In this document: positions 41,250-64,000 of the stretch, one piece after another | Layout: the number at the start of each line of letters is the position of its first letter | Numbering within the stretch: the first letter of the stretch is position 1 | Assembly: GCF_907165195.1 (NCBI RefSeq) | Contig: NZ_OU015584.1 | Span: 2,676,978 to 2,740,977 of the forward strand | Direction of reading: 5' to 3' | Source of the DNA: Parvicella tangerina | Lineage (GTDB): Bacteria; Bacteroidota; Bacteroidia; Flavobacteriales_D; Parvicellaceae | DNA: 64,000 nt | Notes under the pieces: model-generated | The model's input: the letters and a program-made list of their open reading frames with translations, nothing else | Told to the model about the DNA's origin: nothing | The model's database searches: none | Position numbers and translations under genes: made by a program

Positions 41250-41251
41250 TT

Positions 41252-44200
41252 CTATCGAATCAGTGTTACGGTTCCTGAAGCAGCATATCTGCCATTTGGA
41301 TATTCTTTACCCTGCCAGGCTGTTTGATCTGTGAAGATTGCCTCTACCTTCCAAACATAAGCATCCTGAGGCATAGGCTCTCCCTCAAAGGTTCCATCCC
41401 ATCCTTCTGTTGGTCTGCCATCTTCATCTAATTCGGTTGACTCCCAAATCTTATTACCCCAGGCATCATAAATCCAAATATGGTAAGCTTGCAATCCTAC
41501 ACCTTTTGGAATAAAGTGAGAAACCTCATAATCTGGATGTGCAGGATACAGTGCATTCGGAACATGTAACCCTTTAAAGTATTCTACCAACACTAGCTGT
41601 GTAATGGTATCAGAACAGCCGTATTCATTTGTGCTGATCAATGTAGTATTAAACTCACCAATTTGTCTAAATCGATGTATTGGATTTTCCTCTTCTGAAG
41701 TTTCTCCGTTACCAAACATCCAATCGTAAGTTACCGCTCCCTGTGAAAGGTTCGTAAACTCGACTGTTCCACTCAAAGGATCTGGGTTTTGAACATTCAC
41801 ATACGTAAAGTCAGCCGTTGGACTCGGGTTCACAACTATAGCTCCATTGACCGTTAACGTATCTCCGCATCCACCAGCACCATAAGCCATGATGGTAACT
41901 GAGTAATTACCCACAGCAGGATAATTGTAGATCACTGAATCTCCTGTTAGTACATCTCCATTACCAAAATCCCAAACTACAGAATCTGCGTAATCACCAA
42001 GACTCTCAAAAGAAAGCAATTCTCCCACACATGCCGTGTCAGTAGGCAAAGTAAAAGCCGCTTCAGGCAACGGATAAACGGTAAAATCCATTGTTGCAAC
42101 ATCTAAGCAACCATGAATACTCGTTGCGGTTAATTCAATCGTATAAGTCCCTGGATTTTGATAAACGTTTGCTGGATTATTCAAAGGACTTGTATTTCCA
42201 TCTCCAAAGTCCCAACTATACCCTACCGCTCCTGTGGTTAAGTTATTGGTAGATACCGTTACTGGCGCATAACAAGCATCGGTGTTAGTAATCTCAAAAT
42301 CAGCTACAGGTAGGGGATAAACTGTAATAGTCTGGGCAATAGAGTCTCTACAACCATTTGCATTTTCTACCAACAGTTCCACAGCATAATTTCCTGGCTG
42401 TGAGAAAGTATGCGATGGATTTGTAGCTACTGACGTATTACCATCTGCGAAATCCCAACTATTGAAGGAGTAATTTGAACTCAAGTTCGTAAAATCAACA
42501 TCTAAAGGAACACACCCACTCGTTGGAATAGCTGAGAAATCAGCCTCTGGTTGAACGCTGACCACTACTGGGTGTGATACTGTAGTAGAACATCCATTTG
42601 TCAAACCAACTCCTGTCAACGTCACTGTATAGGTTCCTGTTTGATCATAAGCGTACGATGGATTCGTGAGGAGCGAGGTTCCCATAGCATCTCCAAAATC
42701 CCAGGTAGAACTTGCTAAGCCCACGGATAAATTAGTAAAATCAAAGGGTGAATTCACACAAACGGAGTCTGGCGATGATGTGAAATCAACAAAAGGAGAA
42801 GGATGTACGGTGATGTCTACTGTTGTTGTATCGTAGCTACAACCATCATTTACAAATAGCGAGACTGTGTAGGTACCCGCTGTGGTAAAAGTGTGTGTTG
42901 GACTGTAAACTGTGGAAGTATTTCCATCACCGAAATCCCAACTAAAAAATAAATTCGATCCTTGGCTTAATTGCGTAAAATCTACTGTTAAAGGTTCGCA
43001 GCCATCCGTTATATTCGTGTTATAAAAGGCATTAACCTGATTAGGAAGTACCGTTACGGTGTGATAACCGGTATCTACCCCACATTCATTTTCCACCACC
43101 AACATCATGGTATAGGTAGTATCGGTTGTTCCTGTTGTGTAGGTATGGTTAAACAATGAGTCTGAGAAAGTCCCCGTTGTTCCATCTCCAAAGTCCCAGA
43201 AATAGGTATCTGGTAAACCGACACTATTATTTGCTATTTCAGCTGGCCATGGCGAGCAACCAATATCAAATGATGGACCGAAAACTGCCGTTGGACTTGG
43301 CATCACTTGAACAGAATCTATATCCGTTACTGTTCCGCAAAAGTTAGTGACATCTAGAGTGATGTAATACGTTGTGTCCGAAAGATAGCTCTGTTGATAA
43401 ATTACATCAGCTGGATCTTCAAGCGTTGAAGTTGATCCATCCCCAAAGTTCCATGCATAAGAAATCTGTACTCCAGTAGAGTTGTTGGTAAACGCCACTT
43501 GAAGTGGAGCACATCCAGAATCCGGAGCCAAAGAAAAGTCAGCTACAGGTGGTTGGCGTACTTCAACTTCTTGGGTTATGCTGTCCACACATCCAAAAAT
43601 TGAAGTAGCAATCAATTGAATATCATAAAAACCGGTATCTGTGTACGTATGCTGAGGATCAGCAAGTGTGCTTCCGTTTCCATCATCGAAGTTCCATTGA
43701 TACGTATCTCCAAGAGTTGTTGTATTTGTAAGACCTTCCGCAACATTGATACACATGATCGGATTATACGTGAAACCAGGTACTGGTAATGGATGAACAT
43801 CCGCATAAGCTGTATCCGTATTTACACAACTCGTAACTGGATCCGTATAGGTATAGACCAATTCGTGCAAACCAACTGTTGCTACTGCAGGGTCAAATGT
43901 ACCCAAATTCGCATCTGTAATTCCCGTACCAGACCACACTCCACCTGCTGGTAGTCCTGTGAAGTCAAATGTTGGTTCTGAAACACAGAAATTCTGATCA
44001 ACACCTGCATCCACGACTGGCAAGGCATGTACGATGAATTCCATGGTATCTTTCGTTTCGCAGTTACCCGAACCAAAACTGTAAATCAACTCAAAAGTTC
44101 CTGCGGTGATAGGGCTAAATAATCCTCCAGATGTAATGTTCGTTCCAGACCAAGTTCCTCCCCCAGGTATACCATTGAGTTGAAAATCAGGTTCATCAAT

Positions 44201-47200
44201 ACAAATTTCACGATCAATACCTGCATCTGCCTGAACGGGATCTACAACCGTAATCTCTCGATCATCAGTATCTTCACATCCTGTTCCAAGGGTATAAGTG
44301 TAAGTAATCGTATAGGTACCTACGGCTGAAGGTGTATAAATTCCAGTTCCCGTAACATCCGGTCCAGACCAAACTCCTCCAGATGGTGTTCCAGTAAATT
44401 GAACTGGGAATGGTTGGTTACACAATGTTGTATCAGCTCCAGCATCAACCACTGGCAAGGTATTAACCGTTACCTGAAGTGTATCAAAGTTATTACAATT
44501 TGTAGCAGGATCTGTATAAGTATACGTCAGCGTATGCACTCCTGCCCCAGCCGTTCCAGCTGTAAACTCTCCTGCAGGGTCCGTTATTCCATTTCCACTC
44601 CAAATCCCTCCTGTTGGTGTTCCAGAAAGTGTGGTTGCAGCCGCATCAAAACAAATATCAAAGTCTGCTCCTGCATCTACCGTTGGTAGCGGATTGACAA
44701 TGAGATCAACATCATCAGTAGTTAAACAAGAACCTGTTCCAAATGAATAGGTCATTGTAAACGTTCCATCCGTGGTTGGTGTATACAATCCTCCTGCAGT
44801 AATTCCAACCCCAGACCAGGTTCCTCCCACAGGTAACCCTGATAGTTGAACCGTACCAGCATCTACACAAAACGTTGAATCAAGTCCTGCATCTGCATCA
44901 GTGGGATCAACAACTAGTACATTCACGGTGTCTTCATTCGTACAGTTGTTTACATCGGTAAAAGTGTAGTACACTTCAAACGTTCCTACCCCAGTCGGTG
45001 TAAATTCACCACTTGGATTTGTAATATTCGGACCAGACCATGAACCTCCAGCAGGAGAGCCAACTAAGTTAGCCGCCACTGGTTGGTTACAGAAAGTGGT
45101 ATCGTTTCCTCCGTCTACAACAGGAAGATCGTTGACAGTAATTAAAAGATCATCCGAGTTTTCGCAATCTGTAATGGGATCTGTGTAGGTGTAAGTCAAT
45201 GTGAACGTTCCAGCACCAGCAGCAACCGGATCAAAGTCTCCAGAAGTATTTACTCCTGTTCCTGTCCATGAACCGCCAGCAGGAGTTCCAAGTAACGTCA
45301 ATACTCCATTATCAATGCAAATACTCTCATCACTTCCAGCATCAACCACAGGAAGTGGATCAACCGTTACCTCCAATTCATCTGTGGTTTGACACGTTCC
45401 TACTCCTAAAGCGTAAGTTAGTGTGAATGTACCCACCGTTCCAGGTGTAAAATCTCCTGTAGCCGTAACCCCCGTTCCTGTCCATGAACCTCCTCCAGGA
45501 TTACCCGAAAAAGTTACGACACCCGAGTTTATACATACTGCTGTGTCATTTCCTACTGTGACCGCTACTGGATCATTAACGGTGATCTCTACTGTATCTT
45601 CGTTTGCGCACAAGTTTCCGTCTGTGTAGGAGTAGTAGACCTCAAATATTCCAACCGCAGAGGGCGTAAAGTCACCAGATGGCGTAATTCCTCCTTGTCC
45701 TGACCATGTACCACCCGTTGGTGTTCCCACAAGTGTTTCGGTGATTGGCTGGTTACATAAGGTTAAATCACCTCCTCCATCAACAATAGGCAAAGAATTA
45801 ACAGTCACCGTTACGTCTGCAGTGCTGGAACAACTTCCTACTGCACCTTCAACGGTATATGTTTGAGTAGTTGTAGGATCGGCATTCACACTTGCTACTG
45901 AAGTTGATGAAAGACCAGTGGCTGGAGACCATGTATAAGATGTAGCTCCTGAAGCTGTTAGCACTGTTGTTTCTCCTTCGCAAATTGTTGCACTAACAGG
46001 ACTCACAGAAATAACTGGAGCTGGCACAATGTCTAATAGTACACTATCAGTTGGGCCAGGACACCCTCCACTGGAACCCGACAAATAATACCATCCTGAA
46101 TCAGCCGATGAAACCGTATTAATAACAGGATCTTCCAAAGAAGATGTAAACCCATTGGGACCTGTCCAATCATAGTTAAGTCCGCCTACTGTTGGCGCAT
46201 CAAAATAAGCTGTATCGCCTTCACATAGCGGTGAACTTACGGTTGGAGTTAAACTCGCAGGCGCCCCGTTTACCGTTACTGTTGTTAACGTATCAAATGT
46301 TCCACAAGCATTGGTTACCTCAAGAGTAATATCAAAAGTGCCAGCTGTTGGAAATACTACACTGCCAGGAATTGAATCCGAGGATGTTCCAGGCGTTCCG
46401 TTGTCGAAGTTCCAAGCATAACTTGTAATTTCTTCATAACATTCCGTGTACTGTGCCACGGGAGAAACACTTTGTCCAGCACATATCGAGCCCAATGGAT
46501 CAATAATAGCCTGAGGAGGACCTTTCACTAGCACTTCCTGATCGTAATCAAACGAACCACAGGCATTAGTCAGAGTTAAACGAACCGTGTATTCACCATA
46601 ATCTTCAAACTCAATTTCTGGTTCAGGATCAGACGGTGTTGTTCCGTTAACAAAGTTGTAAACTCCTGAAGATGGCAAACAGGCACTCCCGTTAAAAATC
46701 ACCTGCCAATCATACGTTACTTCACAGGTATTCGAAAGATCTGATAAATCCGAAACGACACCAATAAAAGGACCGCAAGCGGTATCAGGAGTGATGGTAA
46801 ACTCAGGAACTGGAGGATCTTCAACACAAACTGTGCGAACGGAATCTCCCGATGCACAACTATTACCCGCTGAAAGTGTTATATCATAAGTTCCAGGAGC
46901 CGTATACGTATGGGTAGTTGGATCTACAGAGAATTGCGTCAACGTATTACCATCTCCAAAATCCCAAGTCACTAAAGTTGTTTGAGCACAGCTGCTGTTA
47001 AACCCAGCAACCGTAGAGTGATTCATATCAATAGGACTTCCAGTACAAACCGGAATTGGACTAGGATCAAACCCCGGTTCAGGTGGAATATAAACACGAA
47101 TTGGAGAAATCGTAGCTGCCGAGCTATCACAAAGATTAATTGCTTTGATACTGAATGTATAAGAATTTCCAGCCAACCCACAAGATGATTGTGTGTACGT

Positions 47201-48283
47201 GTGACAAATTGAGGCTGGTGGTGGATGAGGTAGCGTATCTAAAGGAGAATTATCTCCAAAATCTACCACATAATAGGTAGTTGGATGATTGGAACTAAAG
47301 TTATTCAACGGAAAGCACAGATCTAACGGACCACAACCATTTGTTCCTCCCGGGTTCGCAGCACCAATCGCTGGGTTGGTAATATTAGCTATCGTGTTAA
47401 CGGAAGTATCAATGCAGCCATTATTACCAGTGACGATGAAAAGAGCATCAAAAATATCGTTGGTCGAATACGTATGCGTTATGCCCCCAGCAGGAAAAGT
47501 AGCGCTATTAAAATCTGGTGTCCCATCATCCCAGACAATTTGATAATTTGAATTGGAACTGCTAACACTATTGTTGAATAAGGTAATATCAAAGTTAGAG
47601 CCGTCACAATTTTTCATTTCATTGAAAGGATCAATGAGCACCGGACCAGGGGTTTGTGAAACAACTATATTCTGCGAGGCAAGTCCTTGACAGCCATTAT
47701 TATCGGTAACGATAAGCTGAACACCAAAATTTTCTGTTGCAGTTCCTTCGCTAATGAATTCATGAACGGGGTTGGCAATATTGCTACTGTTACTACTGCC
47801 TGATGCGGGGTTGTCAAAATTCCATTGATACGACAATCCAGTTCCAACGGACGAATTTGTAAATGAAACCGGAATATTTGCGCATGGATCTGACTGAGAG
47901 ACACTGAAAGAAGCCGTTGGCGAAGTTTGTAACGTAACTGTTACCTGATCTGTATCTGTGCAACCATTCGCATCCTCAATCGTAAGCGTGTAAGTTGTAT
48001 TTGACCCAACGGTACAAGTTGGTGTCGGACAGTTGGTACAAGACAATCCAACAGCAGGAGACCATGAGTAGTCTATTGTTCCATTGCCTGTTGAACCAGT
48101 ACCATCTAGTTGAACACTCGAACCACTGCACAATGTTACGTTGTTACTTCCTGCATCTGCGTTACACTGAGAATGACCATTGTTTGTCAAAAGTGACAAC
48201 ACGATAAGGGTAGCAACGAAATAAGTCAGTCTTATTTCCTTTAAAAAAATCAAAATCACACTTTTACCATTGCAAATATGCAA
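41252..48283 (-). CDS. Giant PKD/repeat surface protein with gliding-motility (CHU_C, T9SS type B) C-terminal domain
   Basis: A 2343-residue secreted protein. An N-terminal hydrophobic stretch (about 19-38) acts as signal peptide. About six PKD-like domains (for example TWDFGDGNTL, AWNFDNGTPG) and a couple of Ig-like units fill residues 45-825. Nine tandem repeats of about 74 residues follow (about 831-1498), each with a PVVDAG.D..C start and a GGSWSG/GGTWSG centre. About nine PKD domains (WDFGDGNTS type) come next, then the CHU_C sorting domain in the last 105 residues (YHIWIYDAWGNKIWES, WDGTFEGEPMPQDAYVWKV). It should be T9SS-secreted with the adjacent SprF/PorP partner and form a long surface filament or adhesin. 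The annotated ATG may be slightly too early, since a promoter-like box lies only a few bases upstream; an in-frame GTG (48259) or TTG (48253) could start it. Confidence 0.85.
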   Translation of the reverse strand: MHICNGKSVILIFLKEIRLTYFVATLIVLSLLTNNGHSQCNADAGSNNVTLCSGSSVQLDGTGSTGNGTIDYSWSPAVGLSCTNCPTPTCTVGSNTTYTLTIEDANGCTDTDQVTVTLQTSPTASFSVSQSDPCANIPVSFTNSSVGTGLSYQWNFDNPASGSSNSSNIANPVHEFISEGTATENFGVQLIVTDNNGCQGLASQNIVVSQTPGPVLIDPFNEMKNCDGSNFDITLFNNSVSSSNSNYQIVWDDGTPDFNSATFPAGGITHTYSTNDIFDALFIVTGNNGCIDTSVNTIANITNPAIGAANPGGTNGCGPLDLCFPLNNFSSNHPTTYYVVDFGDNSPLDTLPHPPPASICHTYTQSSCGLAGNSYTFSIKAINLCDSSAATISPIRVYIPPEPGFDPSPIPVCTGSPIDMNHSTVAGFNSSCAQTTLVTWDFGDGNTLTQFSVDPTTHTYTAPGTYDITLSAGNSCASGDSVRTVCVEDPPVPEFTITPDTACGPFIGVVSDLSDLSNTCEVTYDWQVIFNGSACLPSSGVYNFVNGTTPSDPEPEIEFEDYGEYTVRLTLTNACGSFDYDQEVLVKGPPQAIIDPLGSICAGQSVSPVAQYTECYEEITSYAWNFDNGTPGTSSDSIPGSVVFPTAGTFDITLEVTNACGTFDTLTTVTVNGAPASLTPTVSSPLCEGDTAYFDAPTVGGLNYDWTGPNGFTSSLEDPVINTVSSADSGWYYLSGSSGGCPGPTDSVLLDIVPAPVISVSPVSATICEGETTVLTASGATSYTWSPATGLSSTSVASVNADPTTTQTYTVEGAVGSCSSTADVTVTVNSLPIVDGGGDLTLCNQPITETLVGTPTGGTWSGQGGITPSGDFTPSAVGIFEVYYSYTDGNLCANEDTVEITVNDPVAVTVGNDTAVCINSGVVTFSGNPGGGSWTGTGVTATGDFTPGTVGTFTLTYALGVGTCQTTDELEVTVDPLPVVDAGSDESICIDNGVLTLLGTPAGGSWTGTGVNTSGDFDPVAAGAGTFTLTYTYTDPITDCENSDDLLITVNDLPVVDGGNDTTFCNQPVAANLVGSPAGGSWSGPNITNPSGEFTPTGVGTFEVYYTFTDVNNCTNEDTVNVLVVDPTDADAGLDSTFCVDAGTVQLSGLPVGGTWSGVGITAGGLYTPTTDGTFTMTYSFGTGSCLTTDDVDLIVNPLPTVDAGADFDICFDAAATTLSGTPTGGIWSGNGITDPAGEFTAGTAGAGVHTLTYTYTDPATNCNNFDTLQVTVNTLPVVDAGADTTLCNQPFPVQFTGTPSGGVWSGPDVTGTGIYTPSAVGTYTITYTYTLGTGCEDTDDREITVVDPVQADAGIDREICIDEPDFQLNGIPGGGTWSGTNITSGGLFSPITAGTFELIYSFGSGNCETKDTMEFIVHALPVVDAGVDQNFCVSEPTFDFTGLPAGGVWSGTGITDANLGTFDPAVATVGLHELVYTYTDPVTSCVNTDTAYADVHPLPVPGFTYNPIMCINVAEGLTNTTTLGDTYQWNFDDGNGSTLADPQHTYTDTGFYDIQLIATSIFGCVDSITQEVEVRQPPVADFSLAPDSGCAPLQVAFTNNSTGVQISYAWNFGDGSTSTLEDPADVIYQQSYLSDTTYYITLDVTNFCGTVTDIDSVQVMPSPTAVFGPSFDIGCSPWPAEIANNSVGLPDTYFWDFGDGTTGTFSDSLFNHTYTTGTTDTTYTMMLVVENECGVDTGYHTVTVLPNQVNAFYNTNITDGCEPLTVDFTQLSQGSNLFFSWDFGDGNTSTVYSPTHTFTTAGTYTVSLFVNDGCSYDTTTVDITVHPSPFVDFTSSPDSVCVNSPFDFTNLSVGLASSTWDFGDAMGTSLLTNPSYAYDQTGTYTVTLTGVGLTNGCSTTVSHPVVVSVQPEADFSAIPTSGCVPLDVDFTNLSSNYSFNSWDFADGNTSVATNPSHTFSQPGNYAVELLVENANGCRDSIAQTITVYPLPVADFEITNTDACYAPVTVSTNNLTTGAVGYSWDFGDGNTSPLNNPANVYQNPGTYTIELTATSIHGCLDVATMDFTVYPLPEAAFTLPTDTACVGELLSFESLGDYADSVVWDFGNGDVLTGDSVIYNYPAVGNYSVTIMAYGAGGCGDTLTVNGAIVVNPSPTADFTYVNVQNPDPLSGTVEFTNLSQGAVTYDWMFGNGETSEEENPIHRFRQIGEFNTTLISTNEYGCSDTITQLVLVEYFKGLHVPNALYPAHPDYEVSHFIPKGVGLQAYHIWIYDAWGNKIWESTELDEDGRPTEGWDGTFEGEPMPQDAYVWKVEAIFTDQTAWQGKEYPNGRYAASGTVTLIR
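43790..45793 (-). repeat. Nine tandem ~222-bp coding repeats inside the giant surface protein
   Basis: Translated, the region holds nine consecutive units of about 74 residues, each starting (L/D)P.V.AG.D...C and containing GGSWSG or GGTWSGTG about 30 residues later. Units alternate between a form starting LPVVDGG/AG with CNQP and forms with CID/CV. The DNA copies are diverged, so the array is old or under selection, not a recent expansion. Confidence 0.8.
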
Positions 48284-50897: not shown

Positions 50898-53800
50898 TCA
50901 CCAAATCCGATAGTCAATAATATTGTTGACAATTCTACTTGTAGGTTGTTGCTTGCCTTGTGAGAGTTCAGACACCTTGTCTTGCAGGTATTCTTGCATT
51001 TCTTTCAACCAAATCTCACCATCTTTATTGAGATCTGCTGCTCCAGATCGAATACCATCGATAAAACAATAGGTAAACAACCCATTTTTCAGGTCTCCGC
51101 GTTCCATAGCAAACTCCATTCCGCCTGCTGCTGAAATGATTGTTGCTCCGGTACCTACTCTCAGGTCATTAAACATTGATTTGGTTAGTTCTGACACATT
51201 TTGCATTCCCTTTCGTTGGGTTACTTTATGTCCCACTGCTCTGAACTGCACGTTTCCTACTTCTGTGTTGTTGGCAGCCATCAACTCTACCTCTTCTTTG
51301 TCTATCTCTCCAGAGTGACAAGCATCGAGCATAAGGGTTTTCTTAAGTGGCTTCACACCATCCAGCACAGCTTCTAGTTTGTCATAAGAAAGTCCGTTCT
51401 CGGATGGATTAGAAAAGTTCATATCATGTGTAGCGAGATAATAGTCCAGATTCTCATCTAATACACCATGACCTGCAATAAACAAGATGATCTCATCATT
51501 AATTTTGGCTGGAGCCAGAAATGACTTGATCTCCTCCATTTTGTCGACCGTAAACGCTTCGTTAACGATTACTTTTTTGTGCACTTCGCCATACCGACTT
51601 GTTTCAGTCAGTGTATTGGCAAAATCCTGTGCATCCTTTGCTGCATATTTTAAATTAAACTGTTCATCTTGATAACTGCCAGCTCCTATGGCTACAACAT
51701 ACAGTTCTTCTTTTACTTTTTCATCATCTCCATAAATCGTTACGTATTGAGGCATGCTAGGTGTACCAGATTGATCCCTGCAAAACACCTCCAATAGGTT
51801 GAATCCTTTCATGAGTTCCACAGAAAAAGTCTTATCTAGTTGTTGTATCGATTTTTTAGAAAGATCAACACGCTCCACAGGTACGTCATTCACCAGGATA
51901 GTTAAATCCTTCAAATTATCGTGCGCTGATAAAATAGACAGGTCCAGATCTACCGTTTTAGCTGAATAAGGAAGTTGCTGCTTGTTTATTATTTTCAGCT
52001 CAGGCACCTCTTCTGGAAGTTCTTCCATAATTCCTAGATCTAGCTTTTCCAGTCGTTTTTCATAGGCTTTATGCAACATTTTCACCCCTTCTTCATTATC
52101 TACCCCAAAGTAATCAGCAACGGCTTGCATCACCTTATCTGGACGATTATAGAAATGATCAAACTGCGTGTAAGGATACACTTCATCTCCTTTTTTAAAT
52201 GAAATTGCTTCAACGGCCTCTGGTTCTCCAAAGTAGTACCCTTCAGGTAAATACACTAACCAATGATCTGCAACACTCATCATTGAAAAAGCGGTATCAG
52301 CTGTGGGGACATAAACGAAATGTTGAATACTCGCATCAACCTGATTGGAATTTGATAGGTTAAGACTCTGCTTATCAATGATAATAGGAATACCGTCATT
52401 ATTGATCATACACATTCCACACCCTCCATTTACAAACTCATTCCTCGAAGCATTGCCATCAGGAAAATATTCTGTTGGCCTCGTATATTTGATGACCTCC
52501 TCTCCAGTTACCGTACTAATTACAAATGACGGTGGAAGGTTTTTCAGGTCTCCCCGATCCTCAAACCCAAAATAGTCTCCATTTTGGCTAAACGCATAAT
52601 CAAACATATACTCCCCTCTTTCTTTAATTTCCTCTCCGGGTAACTCAAGGAGTATTTTCTCTGTTCCTTTTTCAAGGTTTAAATGCCTCACAGCATAATT
52701 AGTATCCAAGTAGGCAAAATATTTCTCGTCACTAGTGAGTACACCATGATTATGTTCGTAGTTATCCATTAATTCAGAGGCCAACTCAACCTTTAACAGT
52801 GTATCTCCTGTTAGGTAATTGACTTTCATCACATGCTTACTGCTCATCAAGAAAGCATGATCTGGTTCTTTAGAGAATCGGCCGTAACTAAAGCCGGGGT
52901 AAACACGATCATGAACATAGTTAGTATCGGTGTACCTGGACAGAAAAACAAAGCTTGAACTCCCTACTTCCTGAGCGATGGAATCTTTAATGTCTCCATA
53001 ATACACAAGATCTTCTAGAAAATAATAATCATTTTCAGAAGATTGATCGATATCAAAGGCTTTGGTATTATCTGAAAAACGATAGTTTGAGACATTGCTG
53101 TAGCTATACTCTCCTTCTGAGTGACTCCCTTGTTTATACACCTGATCTGCTATAAAGCTGTAAAGCTCCACAGTCAGGCCTGGGTCCGCCTCCATTTGGG
53201 TAACAAAAAAAGCTGGGTCAGTCGCATTTTTTTCGACAATGATATCATAGACATACTGAAAACCTTTTAGTTTCTGCCTTCTGCTAAAAAAAGGAAAAAT
53301 TGATAGAATATCTGGTTGGTCTTGATCATACCAATTCCCAAATGAACCAAAATCAAATGAATTGGATGCAACGGAGAAGTTGAACGACTTCACCACCTTG
53401 CTTAAGTCCAATCGTTTGATAACTTTATCTAGTTTAGCATCATATATTTCACATTGTGTACTGTTCTTGTTCACAAGTGTAAAAACGTCCGTCAAACTGG
53501 TTCTACCATAGAGTTTGTCTATATCCGCCTTAACTAGTTTTTTATTTTCGATATCATAAATGAACGATAATGCTCCCTTCGTTTCAAAGTCATCATAACC
53601 TCCATACTCCATCACGTAGTTCTTAAACCCAATTAAATCTGAATGCGTGAGGTAACTGCCCTCATTTCTATAATTTGTATGATAGTAGTTATAACCGTAA
53701 TAACTCCTGCTTGTATAGACAAAAACTTCAACATATTTTTCGTTTAATGGAACACAAAGCAGACGGTCGTACCAACTCATATCAATACTATCTCCGTTGA

Positions 53801-54788
53801 CAACCAAAAGGGTTTCATCCTGATACAAATGGTTAGCTGTTATTCTTTCTACTGTTTCCTCTTTAAGATCCACCAACTCAATACCTTCTAAGTTTGCCAC
53901 CATAATTTTTTCAGGATTTTTATCCGAAGGGAATACCAATTCAAACTCTGAAGTATCTGGCAATTGTAATGAAAACTCCTTTTCCTGGGTTAATGACATA
54001 TCCTCATTGATTTCATACACTTTCATGGTTGAATAATCTGCCAATAATAATGCTAAACGGCTTCCTGACGGGTGAACGGCACCTGCAATTGTATTGAACT
54101 CAAAAATAGTATCTAAGTCCGTTGAATAGTATCCGCTTCCCGGACTTTGCGTATTGACTAAAGTAATTTTAGTATAATCGTCATATCGGTTAAAGTATTG
54201 TTCTCCGTTTCGGTAGGTAAACTCATTGATATAATTACCGTTTTGGACATCTATTCTGTAGACCGAATCATTCCTGATGAATTTTATGTTTTCATTGAGC
54301 GTAATTCCTGTTACTTTTTGATATCCTTTACTTCCATCCATACTATTATTTGGTGAATTAAAATTGTAAGGTCTTTCCATTCTAACCTTATTATTTTCAC
54401 TCACGTATTTAGACGTATTTACGGTATTATCTTTGAAAGAAATAGCAAGACGTGTGTCAGGATTGCTATAGTAGCTTTCATGATCTCCAGTAATGTAGAC
54501 AAAAAGTGAATCTCCTTGAGGTTCAAAACGGACAATCCCATTTTCTGGCATATACAATCCTTCTACCTCTATATGTTCTTGTGGTACCATGTTCCACATA
54601 TCCCAAATCACTACACCTGAGCTACCATAGTTAAAATTCAAACTGTAGATTTTATTATTGTTAAAATCATAGTAATTCTGTTCAGAGAACTTCACTTTGT
54701 CTGGTAACTGGACGGTAACACCGTCTTTCTGAGTCCAACCACACACACCTATCAATCCTAAGAGTAAACCTATCCAATACCTCATCAT
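50898..54788 (-). CDS. Secreted caspase-fold (peptidase C14-like) protein with long N-terminal repeat region
   Basis: The 1296-residue product begins with a signal peptide (MMRYWIGLLLGLIGVCGWTQ). Residues about 25-880 look like a beta-propeller/WD40-like region without clear repeat motifs. The C-terminal 260 residues are a caspase-fold domain: VVAIGAGSYQDEQFNLKYAA, then FIAGHGVLDE with His1107 and LMLDACHSGE with Cys1157, the catalytic dyad at the usual spacing of about 50, followed by ATIISAAGGMEFAMER and GLFTYCFIDGI. The signal peptide implies a periplasmic or exported peptidase rather than a cytoplasmic one. Start and upstream stop overlap (TAATG), so it is coupled to the 802-residue protein. 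A T9SS sorting domain is not seen. Confidence 0.82.
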   Translation of the reverse strand: MMRYWIGLLLGLIGVCGWTQKDGVTVQLPDKVKFSEQNYYDFNNNKIYSLNFNYGSSGVVIWDMWNMVPQEHIEVEGLYMPENGIVRFEPQGDSLFVYITGDHESYYSNPDTRLAISFKDNTVNTSKYVSENNKVRMERPYNFNSPNNSMDGSKGYQKVTGITLNENIKFIRNDSVYRIDVQNGNYINEFTYRNGEQYFNRYDDYTKITLVNTQSPGSGYYSTDLDTIFEFNTIAGAVHPSGSRLALLLADYSTMKVYEINEDMSLTQEKEFSLQLPDTSEFELVFPSDKNPEKIMVANLEGIELVDLKEETVERITANHLYQDETLLVVNGDSIDMSWYDRLLCVPLNEKYVEVFVYTSRSYYGYNYYHTNYRNEGSYLTHSDLIGFKNYVMEYGGYDDFETKGALSFIYDIENKKLVKADIDKLYGRTSLTDVFTLVNKNSTQCEIYDAKLDKVIKRLDLSKVVKSFNFSVASNSFDFGSFGNWYDQDQPDILSIFPFFSRRQKLKGFQYVYDIIVEKNATDPAFFVTQMEADPGLTVELYSFIADQVYKQGSHSEGEYSYSNVSNYRFSDNTKAFDIDQSSENDYYFLEDLVYYGDIKDSIAQEVGSSSFVFLSRYTDTNYVHDRVYPGFSYGRFSKEPDHAFLMSSKHVMKVNYLTGDTLLKVELASELMDNYEHNHGVLTSDEKYFAYLDTNYAVRHLNLEKGTEKILLELPGEEIKERGEYMFDYAFSQNGDYFGFEDRGDLKNLPPSFVISTVTGEEVIKYTRPTEYFPDGNASRNEFVNGGCGMCMINNDGIPIIIDKQSLNLSNSNQVDASIQHFVYVPTADTAFSMMSVADHWLVYLPEGYYFGEPEAVEAISFKKGDEVYPYTQFDHFYNRPDKVMQAVADYFGVDNEEGVKMLHKAYEKRLEKLDLGIMEELPEEVPELKIINKQQLPYSAKTVDLDLSILSAHDNLKDLTILVNDVPVERVDLSKKSIQQLDKTFSVELMKGFNLLEVFCRDQSGTPSMPQYVTIYGDDEKVKEELYVVAIGAGSYQDEQFNLKYAAKDAQDFANTLTETSRYGEVHKKVIVNEAFTVDKMEEIKSFLAPAKINDEIILFIAGHGVLDENLDYYLATHDMNFSNPSENGLSYDKLEAVLDGVKPLKKTLMLDACHSGEIDKEEVELMAANNTEVGNVQFRAVGHKVTQRKGMQNVSELTKSMFNDLRVGTGATIISAAGGMEFAMERGDLKNGLFTYCFIDGIRSGAADLNKDGEIWLKEMQEYLQDKVSELSQGKQQPTSRIVNNIIDYRIW

Positions 54789-57390: not shown

Positions 57391-58248
57391 CTACCTACAA
57401 TCCGCATAAAATTCGAGAACTCCTGTTTCCAAGAAATAAAGTTGTTTGCCAGTAGGCTTCCCATCCACTAACGTGCTAATCCAAACACGTTCGTCTACTT
57501 GAATATCAATATATTTGAATTTATCGATCGTATAATCCTTTTCTCCTACGCGCATCACTGTAGCATGTGAACAATTATTTCTCAATCTAATTTTTCCAAC
57601 CTCCTCTTTTGACGAGCTAGAGCTGGCGGCACTTCCAGAGGCACTACCTTTTGGTCCTGTTGATTCTTCCTTTTCTGTTCGTGGCTGAAGGCGATCGTTG
57701 CAAACATATTCATCCCACTTTGAGTCCCAACCATCGTAGTGTACTTTATACTCTCCATCTCCTTTAGCTTCAAGAATCGTAGCATCATACCATTTATCAT
57801 TATATAGGAGATCTACTTTCTCTCCTTTCTTGTACTTCGTAGTTTTATCTAAACATTTACTTCCCTCTTTTGCTTTAATCTTATCAGCAGTTGTCCACTC
57901 TAAATTGCCATCATCGTATTTTAAGTAAAAATTCTCCCCCTTTACTGATTTCACAATAGCAGGAAGATAAGTCCCCTCATTATTCCAGTTAGCCTCTACC
58001 CTATCCCCGACATTAAAGGCACTTTCAGGGATAACGTTTATGAACTCTGAAGTGGTCCACTCCTCATCCCCATCATCATACCTAATGAAGTATTTCTCCC
58101 CTTCAATTTGATCGATCTGCCCAGAATAATAAGTTCCTTTCCCTAACCAATTTACCTCTACCTTATCTCCCACTTTCAATTCTGATTGACTCAAAACCAC
58201 CGCATTTAAGCCAATGATTAAAGTCAGCATCCAAAACAGTTTCTTCAT
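57391..58248 (-). CDS. Exported protein with three tandem Tudor/chromo-barrel-like repeats
   Basis: ATG at 58248 gives a 285-residue protein with a signal peptide (MKKLFWMLTLIIGLNAVVLS); an ATG nine codons upstream is less likely. Three tandem units of about 50 residues follow: LKVGDKVEVNWLGKGTYYSG with YFIRYDDGDEEWT; NVGDRVEANWNNEGTYLPA with YLKYDDGNLEWT; and YKKGEKVDLLYNDKWYDATI with YKVHYDGWDSKWDEYV. The last has the Tudor-knot/chromo-barrel pattern W-Y-x-A-x-I ... Y-x-V-H-Y-x-G-W-D-x-x-W-D-E-Y known from eukaryotic chromatin readers. A Gly/Ser-rich linker and a small C-terminal beta domain (RLRNNCSHATVMRVG) complete it. Function in the periplasm or outside is unknown. Confidence 0.75.
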   Translation of the reverse strand: MKKLFWMLTLIIGLNAVVLSQSELKVGDKVEVNWLGKGTYYSGQIDQIEGEKYFIRYDDGDEEWTTSEFINVIPESAFNVGDRVEANWNNEGTYLPAIVKSVKGENFYLKYDDGNLEWTTADKIKAKEGSKCLDKTTKYKKGEKVDLLYNDKWYDATILEAKGDGEYKVHYDGWDSKWDEYVCNDRLQPRTEKEESTGPKGSASGSAASSSSSKEEVGKIRLRNNCSHATVMRVGEKDYTIDKFKYIDIQVDERVWISTLVDGKPTGKQLYFLETGVLEFYADCR

Positions 58249-58423
58249 TTTTTTTTTGAATAAAAATAAACACAAACACCTGAAAATTTAGGATAGTTAC
58301 ATTAATCATTATTTGATCTTGATAAATACACTTAAAAAGTCCATGGAGGCTTTTTTCAACCTGACCTAGAGAGAAAACCAAAGACATCAAAACAATAGTT
58401 TTCCAGTATTCCAATTTTATGAA

Positions 58424-58431: not shown

Positions 58432-58461
58432 AAAGAACAACATTGGCTCCTTTACCTACAG

Positions 58462-58489
58462 CAAAAGCCGCAGAAGTCTGCGGCTTTTG
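58462..58489 (-). terminator. Terminator after the second gldM gene
   Basis: CAAAAGCCGCAG pairs with CTGCGGCTTTTG over 12 bases with a 4-base loop, 26 bases after the stop of the gldM gene ending at 58516. A T tract is present on either strand inside the stem. Confidence 0.8.
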
Positions 58490-58515
58490 TATTTTTCTAA
58501 TTTAAATTATTTGAT

Positions 58516-60261
58516 CTACTGTACGGTTAGGGTCATCCCTGCGATGGGAACACTCTTGGAGCCATTTATACTCACCATAACATTACTAAAGATCAACTTA
58601 CTGCCAGATCCCAACTTACTCTTAGCTTCTTTCATTTGCTGCGTAAACTGGTTGGAGTTGCTATGCATATCAGCAGGACCTTTTGAAGATATGGTCGTCA
58701 AGTCAAAACTTGTCACTTTGTAGCTTACATCCAAAATCTTATCTGGAAGATCTACCATCACAGCGTTAGCACCCAAATATGTTTTAGGGATATACGGATC
58801 TTCAAAAGACTTACCTGCATAGTACAACTGTGGTTTGGGTAAAGCTCTAATGACAAACTCCTTGGTAGTCAAGCTCACTGAATTACCATCTTTGTCCTTT
58901 GCACTTACGCTAATCTTCGCTTTTTTTCCAACCTTGCTAACTGTGGCTACATAACTACTTCCTTCCTTCGAAATCGTGCAGTTTTGACCTTTAACCGATA
59001 TCGTTGAAGGATCATACCCACCAGCAGAAACCTTAATACGATTTTTCCAGTTATTAGCATATAATACATTAAGGTCTGCTGCTGAAATTGTTGCATTTGG
59101 AGATCCCACACTATACTTGTACGTAAATGGTCTCCATTCTACTCCACTTTTGGTTTGAACAGCTATTTCTCCAACTACCCTATGCTCTCCAACACCTCCA
59201 CCAAGTTTCACGGAGTTGATATTAGCCGTTTTCATGTTTTCAGGGGTGCGTAGCGTATCATCTACCCAGTATCTAATTTCAGGGGTTGCTGTAGTATCAA
59301 ATGCAGCCACCATTACCGCCATATCTAAACTATCTCCGACATTGAGGTAACTGGTAGAGGCAAATGCCAAAGGCTCTACTTTGTTAATTGGAAACACAGG
59401 GGCATCATTCTGTTCATTAAAGTTATTAAGTACGATCTTCTCCGCCTGCAAAACACGTCCCTTGAGTGAGGTAAAAATTGCTGAAGCCGCCACCATCGGT
59501 GCATGATCAAATTGCCCAGCCTGCCAAGGATAATTTTCTCCATGATTATCAACAAACTGAGGCATCGTAAGCAACCTGTAAATCTCCTTAATCAATAATT
59601 TATCGGATTCTTTTACGGTTGTAAGTGCAGCGTCCAATTGTGTTAAAAAAGTGGTGTCATCTTCTGTTTTTCTTACTACTTCTATCGGTTCAAAGTAATA
59701 TTGTTCCCCTTTATCTCCTTCTTTTTGGGCTAAGAGGATGCATAAAGAGTCCCTGTAATTTTCTAAGGTAGTCACCAGACTTTTTCCTTTTTCCGTGATA
59801 TTTTGGTGGTCAGTACCTACAAATATCCGTGTTGGAATATCATAGTCATCTTTTTTGTTATACTCATGGTGTACAAGATCCTTGACTGCAAGAAAGCCGT
59901 CACCAGCATCGTATAGCCAATTACCTTCTTGACCTTCTACCAACATTTCCTGCGCATTATTCATGTAGAAGTTGGCTGTATTTCTTGCCATTCCATGTAC
60001 TTTTAATGCTTTGTTATACAATTCTTTGAGTTCTTTCTTTTCATTTTCAGCGATCTCTGGACTGTTCATTTTTCCAAATAAGGTTCCAATCATATTTCTG
60101 TTAGAATTAACCAGATCGGTATTTTGATTTTCGATGTTGTTACTTAGCGTTACAAAGGAGTTAATCACTTCCTTTGATACATTCATCGCAAGCATGGCCA
60201 TCAGTACCAGGTACATTAAGCCAATCATCTTTTGTCTCGGAGTTTCTTTTCCACCAGCCAT
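58516..60261 (-). CDS. gldM: Gliding motility/T9SS protein GldM (second copy)
   Basis: The 581-residue protein begins MAGGKETPRQKMIGLMYLVL, the exact opening of GldM/PorM, with one membrane segment at about 13-33 and a long periplasmic part of four beta domains. GldM with GldL forms the proton-driven motor of T9SS and gliding, spanning the periplasm to reach GldK/GldN. Typical length is 510-530, so it is slightly long. Domain-end motifs DIPTRIFVG near 145 and KVGKKAKISVSAKDKDGNS near 455 match the other copy at 62490. It lies downstream of a gldN copy with a 238-base gap and its own terminator. It is a diverged paralogue rather than a recent duplicate. Confidence 0.9.
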   Translation of the reverse strand: MAGGKETPRQKMIGLMYLVLMAMLAMNVSKEVINSFVTLSNNIENQNTDLVNSNRNMIGTLFGKMNSPEIAENEKKELKELYNKALKVHGMARNTANFYMNNAQEMLVEGQEGNWLYDAGDGFLAVKDLVHHEYNKKDDYDIPTRIFVGTDHQNITEKGKSLVTTLENYRDSLCILLAQKEGDKGEQYYFEPIEVVRKTEDDTTFLTQLDAALTTVKESDKLLIKEIYRLLTMPQFVDNHGENYPWQAGQFDHAPMVAASAIFTSLKGRVLQAEKIVLNNFNEQNDAPVFPINKVEPLAFASTSYLNVGDSLDMAVMVAAFDTTATPEIRYWVDDTLRTPENMKTANINSVKLGGGVGEHRVVGEIAVQTKSGVEWRPFTYKYSVGSPNATISAADLNVLYANNWKNRIKVSAGGYDPSTISVKGQNCTISKEGSSYVATVSKVGKKAKISVSAKDKDGNSVSLTTKEFVIRALPKPQLYYAGKSFEDPYIPKTYLGANAVMVDLPDKILDVSYKVTSFDLTTISSKGPADMHSNSNQFTQQMKEAKSKLGSGSKLIFSNVMVSINGSKSVPIAGMTLTVQ

Positions 60262-60499
60262 AATTTTAAGGTTTTATGAGGTTGAGTCATGGTCTTGCAT
60301 TCATCTTGAGCTCTCCCAAGTGAGATTCGAAACCAATTTCCTATTCCTCTGGTAAATAATTAGTTGCGTGAATTAATACAACCTATTTATCAGCTATCCC
60401 CGGACGATGTCTGATTTACTCTTATAATGTGACAAAATAAAAAAGGTACAAAAATGTCCTCTGACCAATATTGCCAAGAGTTTACACCAACCAGAATTT

Positions 60500-61438
60500 C
60501 TACAAATTCCAAAGGTCGTGTTCCAAAATAAACAGGTCTAGTTTGATTCGTTCTGACTCAAGCAATGCATCTACTCCTCTATGGTTAGGATCGATAGAGC
60601 GATCATATACATTGCTTTCCTTATGGATGTAACTGCTAAAATCTCTTTTCCAGAAAAGATCATCAAAACTCATACGTTGTGCATCATTGTGCGGATTGTA
60701 AACAAAAAAGTTCTGAAACAAATACCTACACTCAGGAAAATAAAGGTAGAATAAAGTCTTCGTCCCCAACACAGCATTCGTCTTCTGATCAACATAATTG
60801 ACAATGGGTGCAATACCAATAATCCTCACATCCATTACCGAACGTTGCTTATCAAAAAACCAATCTTCCTTAATCTCATACTTAATGATATCCTTTGCTG
60901 TATACAGGTTCACCACAGTATCCATCATTTCTATTCCATTCTCATCATATACCACAGCACCCGTCATTGGATCAATAACAGGAGTAAGCAATTTTTCTCC
61001 AAAGAAAGATTCCAGACGAAGGTGATACTCCTCGTTCGTTTCAGCTGATTGTCTCAGCACTGGAAATCTGAATTGGTCATCATTATAAACGCCATTTTTA
61101 TAGTCGTAAATGGTTAAGCTACCTTCTGTTAAAGCACCATACTTAATCACATCAAACAACGACATTCTGTCTTGAGAAATCGGTTCTAAAGGATAGTACA
61201 AGGCGTAGTTTTGTTTTTGACGAAGATCTATTGTACGCCAAACTCTTTTTGCCCACATCACGTCAGCATTTCTTAAGTAAGGATAATTTACAACACGTTT
61301 TGTGGGGATGTGATGTTGTATATGACTTCCTTTCATCACCCCATTATTTCCCTGATCTGGAAATCCAGGCATCTGAGCAGATAAATTAATTGATAAGAAA
61401 AGTAAGGTGCTGGCTTCAAAAAGGGTTCTTAGAGTCAT
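60500..61438 (-). CDS. gldN: Gliding motility/T9SS protein GldN (second copy)
   Basis: GldN/PorN forms the outer-membrane-associated ring with GldK that contacts GldM. The 312-residue product has a signal peptide (ending LSAQ), then HIPTKRVVNYPYLR, DVMWAKRVWRTIDLRQK, and the hallmark blocks IKEDWFFDKQRSVMDVRIIG near 190-209 and FVYNPHNDAQRMSFDDLFWK near 245-264. It is very similar to the copy at 61546, with blocks of more than 30 identical residues. It starts 107 bases after the first gldN and after a terminator, so it may belong to a separate unit with the second gldM. Confidence 0.92.
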   Translation of the reverse strand: MTLRTLFEASTLLFLSINLSAQMPGFPDQGNNGVMKGSHIQHHIPTKRVVNYPYLRNADVMWAKRVWRTIDLRQKQNYALYYPLEPISQDRMSLFDVIKYGALTEGSLTIYDYKNGVYNDDQFRFPVLRQSAETNEEYHLRLESFFGEKLLTPVIDPMTGAVVYDENGIEMMDTVVNLYTAKDIIKYEIKEDWFFDKQRSVMDVRIIGIAPIVNYVDQKTNAVLGTKTLFYLYFPECRYLFQNFFVYNPHNDAQRMSFDDLFWKRDFSSYIHKESNVYDRSIDPNHRGVDALLESERIKLDLFILEHDLWNL

Positions 61439-61486
61439 CTGTTAAGCTATTGGTTTACTACCATAACCCTAGAAGTATAAAAAGGA

Positions 61487-61523
61487 TACAAAAAAACCCT
61501 GACCTTTTTCAAGACCAGGGTTT
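61487..61523 (-). terminator. Rho-independent terminator after the first gldN gene
   Basis: On the minus strand AAACCCTG pairs with CAGGGTTT (8 pairs, 14-base loop), followed directly by a run of seven T residues. It lies 23 bases after the gldN stop at 61546 and separates the first gldM-gldN pair from the second gldN-gldM pair. Confidence 0.8.
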
Positions 61524-61545
61524 CATCAAATAATATATCTAACTT

Positions 61546-62481
61546 TTACAAGTTCCAAAGGTCATGTTCCATTCTGAACATTTCTCCTTTGATCTTTTCT
61601 GATTCAAGAAGCGCATCCACACCTAACCAGTTAGGGTTGATTGCTCTGTCATACACATTACTCTCCTTGTGAATATAGCTATTGAAATCTCTCTTCCAGA
61701 ATAAATCGTCAAAACTCATACGTTGCGCATCATTGTGCGGATTGTACACGAAGAAGTTCTGAAATAGATATCTACACTCAGGGAAATAAAGGTAAAACAG
61801 TGTTTTTGTACCGATAACCGCGTTTGTGTTAGGATCCACATAGTTTACAATTGGTGCAATACCAATAATTCTAACATCCATCACAGAACGCTGTTTATCA
61901 AAAAACCAATCTTCCTTAATCTCATACTTGATAATGTCTCTAGCAGTGTAAGGGTTAACCAAGGTATCCATTATTTCGATACCATTAGTATCGTACATAA
62001 TAGCACCTGTAACAGGGTCAAACTTAGGAGCAACCGTGATTGTTCCGAAGAAAGACTCTACTCTTTTCTTGAATTCCTCATCAGACTCTCCAGTTTGTTT
62101 AATTACCGGGAATCTGAACTGGTCATCATTATATACACCATTCTTGAAGTCATAAAGTGTAATACTACCTTCTTCAGTAGCACCATACTTAATTACATCA
62201 AACAAAGACATTCTATCTGAGATCGGCTCTATTGGGTAATAAAGCGGATGATTTTGCTTCTCACGAAGATCGATTGTTCTCCACACTCTCTTCGACCACA
62301 TTACATCAGCTTCACGAAGATGCGTGTACTGGATCACTCGTTTGGTTGGAATATGTTCTTGAACATAAACTCCATCCAAAACACCCGATCCCGAACTCAC
62401 TCCAGTTGACGGCAACTGCGCAACTGCTGAGATAGACAAAAGAAGTAAGGTGGTGGTTTCAATTAATCTTCTAATCATCAT
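61546..62481 (-). CDS. gldN: Gliding motility/T9SS protein GldN (first copy)
   Basis: A 311-residue protein with a signal peptide (ending AVAQ), HIPTKRVIQYTHLREADVMW, WRTIDLREKQN, IKEDWFFDKQRSVMDVRIIG and FVYNPHNDAQRMSFDDLFWK. It forms the T9SS periplasmic/outer-membrane ring with GldK. It starts 8 bases after gldM (62490) with no terminator between, the standard gldM-gldN order of the gldKLMN operon, and is therefore the likely housekeeping copy. gldK and gldL would lie beyond the right window edge. Confidence 0.94.
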   Translation of the reverse strand: MMIRRLIETTTLLLLSISAVAQLPSTGVSSGSGVLDGVYVQEHIPTKRVIQYTHLREADVMWSKRVWRTIDLREKQNHPLYYPIEPISDRMSLFDVIKYGATEEGSITLYDFKNGVYNDDQFRFPVIKQTGESDEEFKKRVESFFGTITVAPKFDPVTGAIMYDTNGIEIMDTLVNPYTARDIIKYEIKEDWFFDKQRSVMDVRIIGIAPIVNYVDPNTNAVIGTKTLFYLYFPECRYLFQNFFVYNPHNDAQRMSFDDLFWKRDFNSYIHKESNVYDRAINPNWLGVDALLESEKIKGEMFRMEHDLWNL

Positions 62482-62489
62482 GTTTCTTT

Positions 62490-64000
62490 TTAGTTTAATA
62501 CAAACCCTAACGCTCCAATTGGAACTTCTCCGTTAGGACCTTTTGCTCTAATATTACTAAACGTAAGTGAAGAACCTTTATTCATTGTTTTAAGAGCAGC
62601 CTTCATCTCCCCAGTCATTTGGTTAGAGTTAGACTTCAATTTACCAACTTTTCCTCCCTTCACAACGATCATTTCAAAGCTACTCACCGTATACTTGATA
62701 TCAAGTGGTGATCCACTAAGATCCGCAAAGATCGGAGGTCCTTGTCTTGCAACAACTGTAGAGATGGAACTTGACTCAATTCCTTTTCCTCCAAATTGTG
62801 GAGTTGGTTTCGGAAGTGGGTAAACCCTAAACTCTTCTTTTGTCAACTGAACAGTTGAACCGTCATCAGCAGTTGCACTTACTGTAATTGTAGCAGCTGA
62901 TCCAACGCCAACTGTTGGTTTAGCAATATAGAATTCTCCTTCTTTCTTGATAGAACATCCTGATCCAGAAACCTTAACCGCTTCTGGTGGGAAACCACCT
63001 GCAGCTACCTGAATCCTGTTGTTCCACCCTTTATACAATACTTTCAAATCGTATGCCGAAACTGCAGCGTTAGGCGAACCTACCGAATACTTAAATGGTT
63101 TGAATGATTTCCATTCCTTACCACTCTTAGTTTCTACAGCAATTTGTCCATAAACAAAGTGATCTCCAACTCCTCCAGCAAGGGTTACATCGTTCTTGCT
63201 AGACTCAATCATGTTCTCTTCAGAATAAGTAGAATCATCCACCCAATATCTGATCTCTGTTGCAGCAGTAGAATCGTATGCTGCGATCATCACTCTCATG
63301 TTAAGAGAATCTCCTTGGTTAATGTAAGCAGTGTTTGCAAAAGAAAGCGGTTCAATCTTGTTAAACTTAAACGGTGGAGCTTGAGATTGCTCACCAAAGT
63401 TTGCCAATGCAACTTTCTCTGCCTGAATCACTTTTGATTTAATGCCGGTGAAGATTGCCGCAGCTGCAGCCATTGGAGCGTGGTCAAACTGTCCAGCCTG
63501 CCAAGGATACTCTTCACCGTGATTATGCACCATTTCAGGTACTGTTAGAATTCTGTAGATCTCCTTGATTGCAGCCTGATCTTCAGGCTTTACGGATTCC
63601 AATGCTGGTTGAAGTGCTTCTAACCAAGTTGTATCTTCATTATTCTCTTTTACTAGTCCTTCTGGTGGAGTAAAAGAATAACTTCCTGTTCCATCTTCTT
63701 TTACTTTATCACCAATCAAGATACAAAGTGAGTCTCTGTAGTTTTCAAGTGTTTCCTTCAATGCTACACCTCTATCATTGATTTTTTTATGGTTATCACC
63801 AACAAATAATCGAGTAGGTACATCGTAGTCATCTTTCTTCTCATAAGGATGCTCATGGTCGTTCAAATCAATAATTGATAAGAAGCCATCTCCTCGGTCT
63901 TCAACCCATTCTCCGGGTTGTCCTTCTGCCAACATTGCATTCGCTTCATTCATGAAGAAATTAGAAGTTCTTCTACACATCGAGTGCACATCCAGTCCTC
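62490..64000 (-). CDS. gldM: Gliding motility/T9SS protein GldM (first copy), N-terminus beyond window
   Basis: The open frame runs from the stop at 62490 to the right edge, giving the C-terminal 503 residues of GldM. VHSMCRRTSNFFMNEANAML near the visible start aligns with the start of the second copy's periplasmic domain (VHGMARNTANFYMNNAQEML), so about 80-85 residues including the membrane segment are missing. Domain motifs DVPTRLFVGDNHKK, WQAGQFDHAPMAAAAAIFTG and FSNIRAKGPNGEVP are present. It pairs with the downstream gldN (8-base gap). The truncation is due to the window end, not a mutation. Confidence 0.92.
   Translation of the reverse strand, partial: GLDVHSMCRRTSNFFMNEANAMLAEGQPGEWVEDRGDGFLSIIDLNDHEHPYEKKDDYDVPTRLFVGDNHKKINDRGVALKETLENYRDSLCILIGDKVKEDGTGSYSFTPPEGLVKENNEDTTWLEALQPALESVKPEDQAAIKEIYRILTVPEMVHNHGEEYPWQAGQFDHAPMAAAAAIFTGIKSKVIQAEKVALANFGEQSQAPPFKFNKIEPLSFANTAYINQGDSLNMRVMIAAYDSTAATEIRYWVDDSTYSEENMIESSKNDVTLAGGVGDHFVYGQIAVETKSGKEWKSFKPFKYSVGSPNAAVSAYDLKVLYKGWNNRIQVAAGGFPPEAVKVSGSGCSIKKEGEFYIAKPTVGVGSAATITVSATADDGSTVQLTKEEFRVYPLPKPTPQFGGKGIESSSISTVVARQGPPIFADLSGSPLDIKYTVSSFEMIVVKGGKVGKLKSNSNQMTGEMKAALKTMNKGSSLTFSNIRAKGPNGEVPIGALGFVLN

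Follow-up and report, generated by a model that had tools for sequence, protein, structure and literature searches.

Parvicella tangerina encodes two GldM and two GldN isoforms alongside a single GldL, GldK and SprA, a set that probably originated through a two-step duplication combined with conversion of half genes. In the first step, a common ancestor of the sampled species of the genus acquired a copy of gldM and its leader behind gldN, which gave K-L-M-N-M' (M' and N' denote second copies). A tandem copy of gldN in P. tangerina then produced N1-N2-M'. Conversion between gldM and gldM' replaced the D1-D2 half of gldM in P. tangerina, and in a sister species it homogenised D3-D4.

Layout and copy number at the locus

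Read along the minus strand, the window (the whole 64,000-nucleotide stretch of DNA analysed) together with the 10 kb to its right contains porP/sprF-gldK-gldL-gldM1-gldN1-terminator-gldN2-gldM2. The features in window coordinates are:

62490-64000, continuing to 64250 beyond the window end, minus strand: gldM1, the operonic GldM (586 aa), assigned by family and domain profiles and mosaic by domain trees and AU tests
61546-62481, minus strand: gldN1, the operonic GldN (311 aa), 8 bases 3' of gldM1; the slower-evolving copy
61493-61524, minus strand: intrinsic terminator 3' of gldN1, a 14-pair stem with a T run
60500-61438, minus strand: gldN2, the second GldN (312 aa), 74% identical to gldN1 and on a longer branch
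60262-60499, minus strand: gldN2-gldM2 spacer of 238 bp, likely to hold the putative gldM2 start site
60368-60380, minus strand: 13-base leader motif TGTATTAATTCAC, 119 bases before gldM2, kept before gldM/gldM' in sister species
58516-60261, minus strand: gldM2 (gldM'), the second GldM (581 aa), 53% identical to gldM1
58461-58490, no strand assigned: strong 13-pair hairpin directly after the gldM2 stop, probably its terminator

A first-pass annotation had described a mirror order of gldM-gldN-gldN-gldM with an 8-base gap between the first two genes, and both the order and the gap were confirmed. The four copies, each full length, lie on the minus strand. The two GldMs scored 220 and 229 bits against TIGR03517 (curated cut-off 180) and contain all four GldM domains (PF12081, PF21601, PF21602 and PF12080), and the two GldNs scored 201 and 189 bits against TIGR03523 (curated cut-off 85.9). 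These Pfam and NCBIfam matches settle the predicted GldM and GldN folds, and the second gldM and gldN appear to be genuine, functional-looking genes. The gldN copies are adjacent tandem paralogs on the same strand, separated by 107 bp. The terminator described after gldN1 is present as a hairpin and T run, but at 61524-61493 rather than 61487-61523. The two genes behind it had been taken as a separate unit; gldN2 and gldM2 do both lie behind the terminator and are probably expressed separately, but with 238 bp between them they need not form one unit. In two sister species, inverted repeats followed by T runs are visible by eye in the spacers behind gldN. Matches to Bacteroidota-type promoters in the gldN1-gldN2-gldM2 spacers were no better than those in shuffled sequences, and the exact pattern was absent.

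The leader motif TGTATTAATTCAC has only two exact matches in 20 kb, one before each gldM. The second copy lies 49 bases before gldM1, at 64287-64299 in window numbering (L003:10287-10299, minus strand). The motif also precedes gldM by about 50 bases in other members of the genus and in a neighbouring genus, and the aligned spacers before gldM' of three species contain a conserved TGTATTAATTCA(C). It may serve gldM as an internal promoter or as a leader element.

Extension to the right, which had been recommended as a search for further copies of gldK and gldL, revealed one operonic set only within 10 kb. Across the genome, a single contig of 3.98 Mb, no second GldK scored over the cut-off, SprA is present once, and profile searches detected no second gldL beyond one weak, short match. 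That match is a 397-aa protein (L152:1179-2372, minus strand) with short segments resembling GldL membrane helices, which is not a GldL. Because GldL, GldK and SprA are each single in a one-contig genome, the locus does not constitute a second complete type IX secretion system (T9SS) trunk with its own gldK and gldL; duplication is confined to the shaft and one ring subunit. An assembly artefact or a recent copying error, the outcome that the first-pass annotation regarded as fatal to its reading, is refuted and has next to no probability: nothing was found in its favour, the copies are deeply diverged with saturated synonymous sites, the genome is one contig, and the arrangement recurs in independent complete genomes such as that of Fluviicola taffensis.

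Some further genes of the window, all on the minus strand, were noted. Directly 3' of gldM2, 57391-58275 encodes a 294-aa protein with repeated Tudor/Agenet-like domains, which are unusual in bacteria. At 50898-54788, a 1296-aa protein ends in a caspase-like (C14) domain near the EACC1-associated caspase model and adjoins an 837-aa protein without an assigned family. A PKD-repeat protein of 2343 aa, encoded at 40200-48283, has a weak C-terminal T9SS signal of type B and is paired with its own PorP/SprF gene.

Ages of the copies and half-gene conversion in gldM

GldN1 and GldN2 are sisters in the GldN tree (support 100/99), and the branch leading to GldN2 is about five times as long as that to GldN1 (0.34 vs 0.07). 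Among the sampled species of the genus, only P. tangerina has gldN2; the sister species G001 and G002 (the latter assembly 97% complete) each contain one full gldN. A short, weak partial GldN match is also present elsewhere in the G001 genome. The second gldM has a wider distribution. The order is K-L-M-N-M' in G001 and M-N-M' in G002, where gldM is split over two contigs and was treated as one gene by inference; in a third species, G003, the contig ends behind gldN and the state of M' could not be scored. GldM2 is 62-64% identical to the M' proteins of G001 and G002 and 53% identical to its own GldM1. These comparisons place the origin of gldM2 before the split of the sampled species, with gldN2 arising later and in this lineage only. 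The presence of the leader motif before both gldM and gldM' indicates that gldM' was copied together with its leader from the gldM of its own family. Since the tandem gldN copy landed between gldN and gldM', the mirror order by itself follows and needs no inversion.

The difference in age also explains why the two pairs differ in identity. The unequal divergence (74% for GldN vs 53% for GldM) had been noted correctly and attributed either to specialisation of the motor's partner or to gene conversion acting on gldN. The first attribution is not needed, because gldM' is common to the sister species and gldN2 is not, and the second is contradicted by the codons. The GldN copies do share runs of more than 30 identical residues, but four-fold sites within the identical blocks agree at just 27 of 72 positions and only about half of the codons match; in one block with 25/25 identical residues, 14 of the 25 codons agree. 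Recent conversion of gldN was ruled out by these saturated synonymous sites, which indicate that purifying selection maintains the identical blocks. Elsewhere in the order, further gldN copies were found behind the ABC-F gene in G010 (L012:2896-3813) and as a tandem gldN-gldN in G052 (L124:2761-4547); duplication of gldN is a repeated event there. The P. tangerina genome also encodes a 551-aa protein with a distant mid-protein GldN domain and a MORN-like repeat (L151:2797-4452; G000:C1:2567796-2569451, plus strand).

Conversion is evident instead in gldM, the gene that had been taken to diverge freely. The divergence of the GldM copies was confirmed, but the DIPTRIFVG and DVPTRLFVG segments cited for it as domain ends in different contexts lie inside D1 and in the same context in both copies. 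Identity is distributed unevenly along the pair: the first 30 residues are identical, the transmembrane segment is 95% identical, and D4 is only 32% identical. Trees built by domain conflict with one another in the manner expected of gene conversion. D1-D2 of GldM1 grouped with the M' proteins, apart from the operonic GldMs of G001, G002 and G003, and the AU test rejected its placement with the M type of the genus (delta lnL 109, p 6e-59). Placement of the D3-D4 half of GldM1 with M' was likewise rejected (delta lnL 108, p 5e-5). In G001, M and M' form sister branches for D3-D4, and grouping of the M' D3-D4 with other M' proteins was rejected (AU p 3e-10). By these trees, GldM1 is a chimera with D1-D2 of the M' type and D3-D4 of the M type, G001 has homogenised the opposite half, D3-D4, and G002 appears to keep both halves distinct, with its gldM split over two contigs. 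An identity scan located the joins in P. tangerina and G001 at residue 390 +/- 30, near the D2/D3 boundary. Conversion half by half marks this junction as a site where GldM tolerates recombination.

The gldM' of G001 (L004:5019-6802, minus strand) is broken by a one-base frameshift beside a T run, which may be a sequencing error or may reflect a gene that is dispensable in that species and decaying. Behind it, L004:247-4737 (minus strand) encodes a subtilisin-like protease of 1496 aa that contains SprB repeats and ends in a type A T9SS tail.

Similar loci in other families

Many close gldM pairs were found among 399 genomes of the order. Loci of two further families, f8 (which we take to be Crocinitomicaceae in GTDB terms) and f10, were selected for reading by the closeness of their gldM genes, so that the counts that follow do not represent frequencies. 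A contiguous K-L-M-N-N'-M' was present in 12 f8 genomes and, with an insert between N and N', in three more; five genomes of f8 and one of f10 had L-M-N-M'. Of the 150 f8 genomes that are at least 90% complete, 47 gave at least four GldM segments, which roughly indicates two genes. The complete genome of Fluviicola taffensis RW262 (G116) has the same layout, as probably does that of 'Ca. Fluviicola riflensis' (G118). F. taffensis RW262 is a gliding bacterium (PMC3236050). The f8 porP-gldK-L-M-N-N'-M' loci match that of P. tangerina in order and orientation, with GldL and GldK each present once. Trees place the origin of the f8 copies within f8. In addition, the selected f8 and f10 loci are usually followed by an ORF of about 650 aa where Parvicellaceae loci have their ABC-F gene, whereas three other genes intervene in P. 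tangerina. The GldN pairs of f8 group by lineage, and GldM swaps occur there too, with F. taffensis M and G138 M in D1-D2 as an example. The gene order in relatives, one of the checks that had been proposed, recurs in another family; the commonness of the layout there and the recombination of gldM by halves were both missed in the first-pass annotation.

The leader motif, which was absent from the f8 genes, the D1-D2 tree and the lineage-wise grouping of GldN suggest that the layouts of f8 and Parvicellaceae are separate in origin. An alternative, which we consider quite unlikely, is that K-L-M-N-N'-M' was ancestral to both families and was lost many times, with conversion keeping the copies alike within each lineage. 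The equal gene order, the ABC-F neighbour shared behind the locus in most of both families and the demonstrable conversion in gldM would fit such a history. It is opposed by the position of the genus's gldM' within the GldM clade of its own family in both D1-D2 and D3-D4, by the family leader motif before gldM', which f8 genes do not have, by the sister relationship of N1 and N2, and by the other Parvicellaceae genera with operons read, which show no M' behind gldN.

The closest known duplication is gldN/gldO of Flavobacterium johnsoniae, where two gldN-type genes likewise end the gldKLM operon, to our knowledge with no second gldM. The locus of P. tangerina differs in having a terminator between its gldN copies and a second gldM after them. 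The two gldN duplications look separate, because N2 is sister to its own N1 (F. johnsoniae itself stands outside the tree). In the open-licence literature, searches turned up neither an account of an additional gldM behind the operon nor one of GldM halves being swapped, and no paper on the N'/M' copies of f8.

Synonymous sites in the P. tangerina copies are saturated and dN/dS could not be computed for them, so two close Fluviicola-type species pairs were used instead. The dN/dS values of M' in these pairs were 0.064 and 0.025, and those of N' were 0.046 and 0.044; ratios this low indicate that the second copies are retained under strong purifying selection. The dS of second copies was 2-5 times that of the first copies (1.0 and 2.0 for M' vs 0.44 and 0.51; 1.3 for N' vs 0.25 in one pair), as would be expected if their codon bias were weaker and their expression lower. 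We regard it as unlikely that the second genes are redundant dosage copies, spares without a distinct role in the manner of gldN/gldO. Partial redundancy of gldN and gldO, as attributed to Rhodes et al. 2010 in PMC8986121, and the frameshifted gldM' of the one G001 assembly point that way. The purifying selection in Fluviicola, the presence of the layout in several lineages and the low D4 identity argue against it.

Contacts with the motor and a proposed function

In the 5:2 rotary motor GldLM/PorLM, the transmembrane helices of the GldM dimer lie within a GldL pentamer, D4 binds PorN through loops 4 and 6, with A241 as a PorN contact residue, and one D4 is modelled as engaged while the other is free (PMC12421860). 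A glutamate of GldL is the partner of GldM Arg9 (PMC12239597). Both copies here retain the corresponding parts of this motor and of the PorKN ring, namely the GldM domains, the Arg9 segment and the region of D4-GldN contact. The N-terminal transmembrane segment with Arg9, MAGGKETPRQKM..., is the same in both GldMs over the first 30 residues, and both should therefore fit the single GldL. At the other end of the shaft, D4 differs strongly. Residue numbers in the PorN paper were converted to those of the full-length chain by an offset of 23, consistent with W47, W154, D220, R223 and A241; PorN A241 then aligns with Ala280 of GldN1 and with a serine in GldN2. In an otherwise nearly identical C-terminal part, DRAINPNWLG of GldN1 stands out against DRSIDPNHRG of GldN2. 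The differing D4 tips and the change at the contact position would make alternative or mixed couplings of motor and ring possible. Positions conserved in N and changed in N' recur across lineages at a few sites in the N-terminal segment (34-45) and at E74/R90, which is suggestive of the GldK-binding helix; most of these positions are unchanged in P. tangerina GldN2.

The first-pass annotation had proposed that GldN2 and GldM2 form a second trunk dedicated to particular exported proteins. Their genes are neighbours behind the terminator, GldM2 D4 and the GldN2 contact loop both differ from the first copies, and T9SS cargo and PorP/SprF are encoded about 10-20 kb away. Against these points, GldK, GldL and SprA have no second copy and sister species carry M' without any N'. 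Dedicated pairing of N2 with M2 was also assessed by co-divergence: across 17 genomes, not corrected for kinship, the divergence of N/N' and of the D4 domains of M/M' did not rise together (Spearman -0.55), and D4 identity was equal with or without N' (p 0.40). A dedicated trunk is very unlikely on this evidence, and specialisation for cargo is speculation that the genomic data do not support.

In the two-step history that we favour, both GldMs would enter the single GldL pentamer as homo- or heterodimers and provide alternative or mixed coupling of the shaft to a GldN1/GldN2 ring on a common motor. For F. johnsoniae, two-hybrid assays show contacts of GldM with GldN as well as with GldO (PMC8986121). 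The motors described so far contain one GldM, whereas here two shaft isoforms share a single GldL and heterodimers are possible. A more far-reaching version, which we put forward only as a doubtful conjecture, is that at least two families separately evolved a mirror-ordered second shaft-ring pair, that mixed GldM1-GldM2 dimers within the GldL pentamer give the 5:2 motor two different arms, and that halves swapped at D2/D3 recombine motor-side and ring-side modules.

These loci bear on how the T9SS motor is coupled to the KN ring or track: whether pushing is done by one D4 tip of the GldM dimer with the other left free, and whether the whole ring moves together. Bacteria in which one motor is combined with two shafts and two ring subunits, among them the cultured glider F. 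taffensis, are natural test systems for this question.
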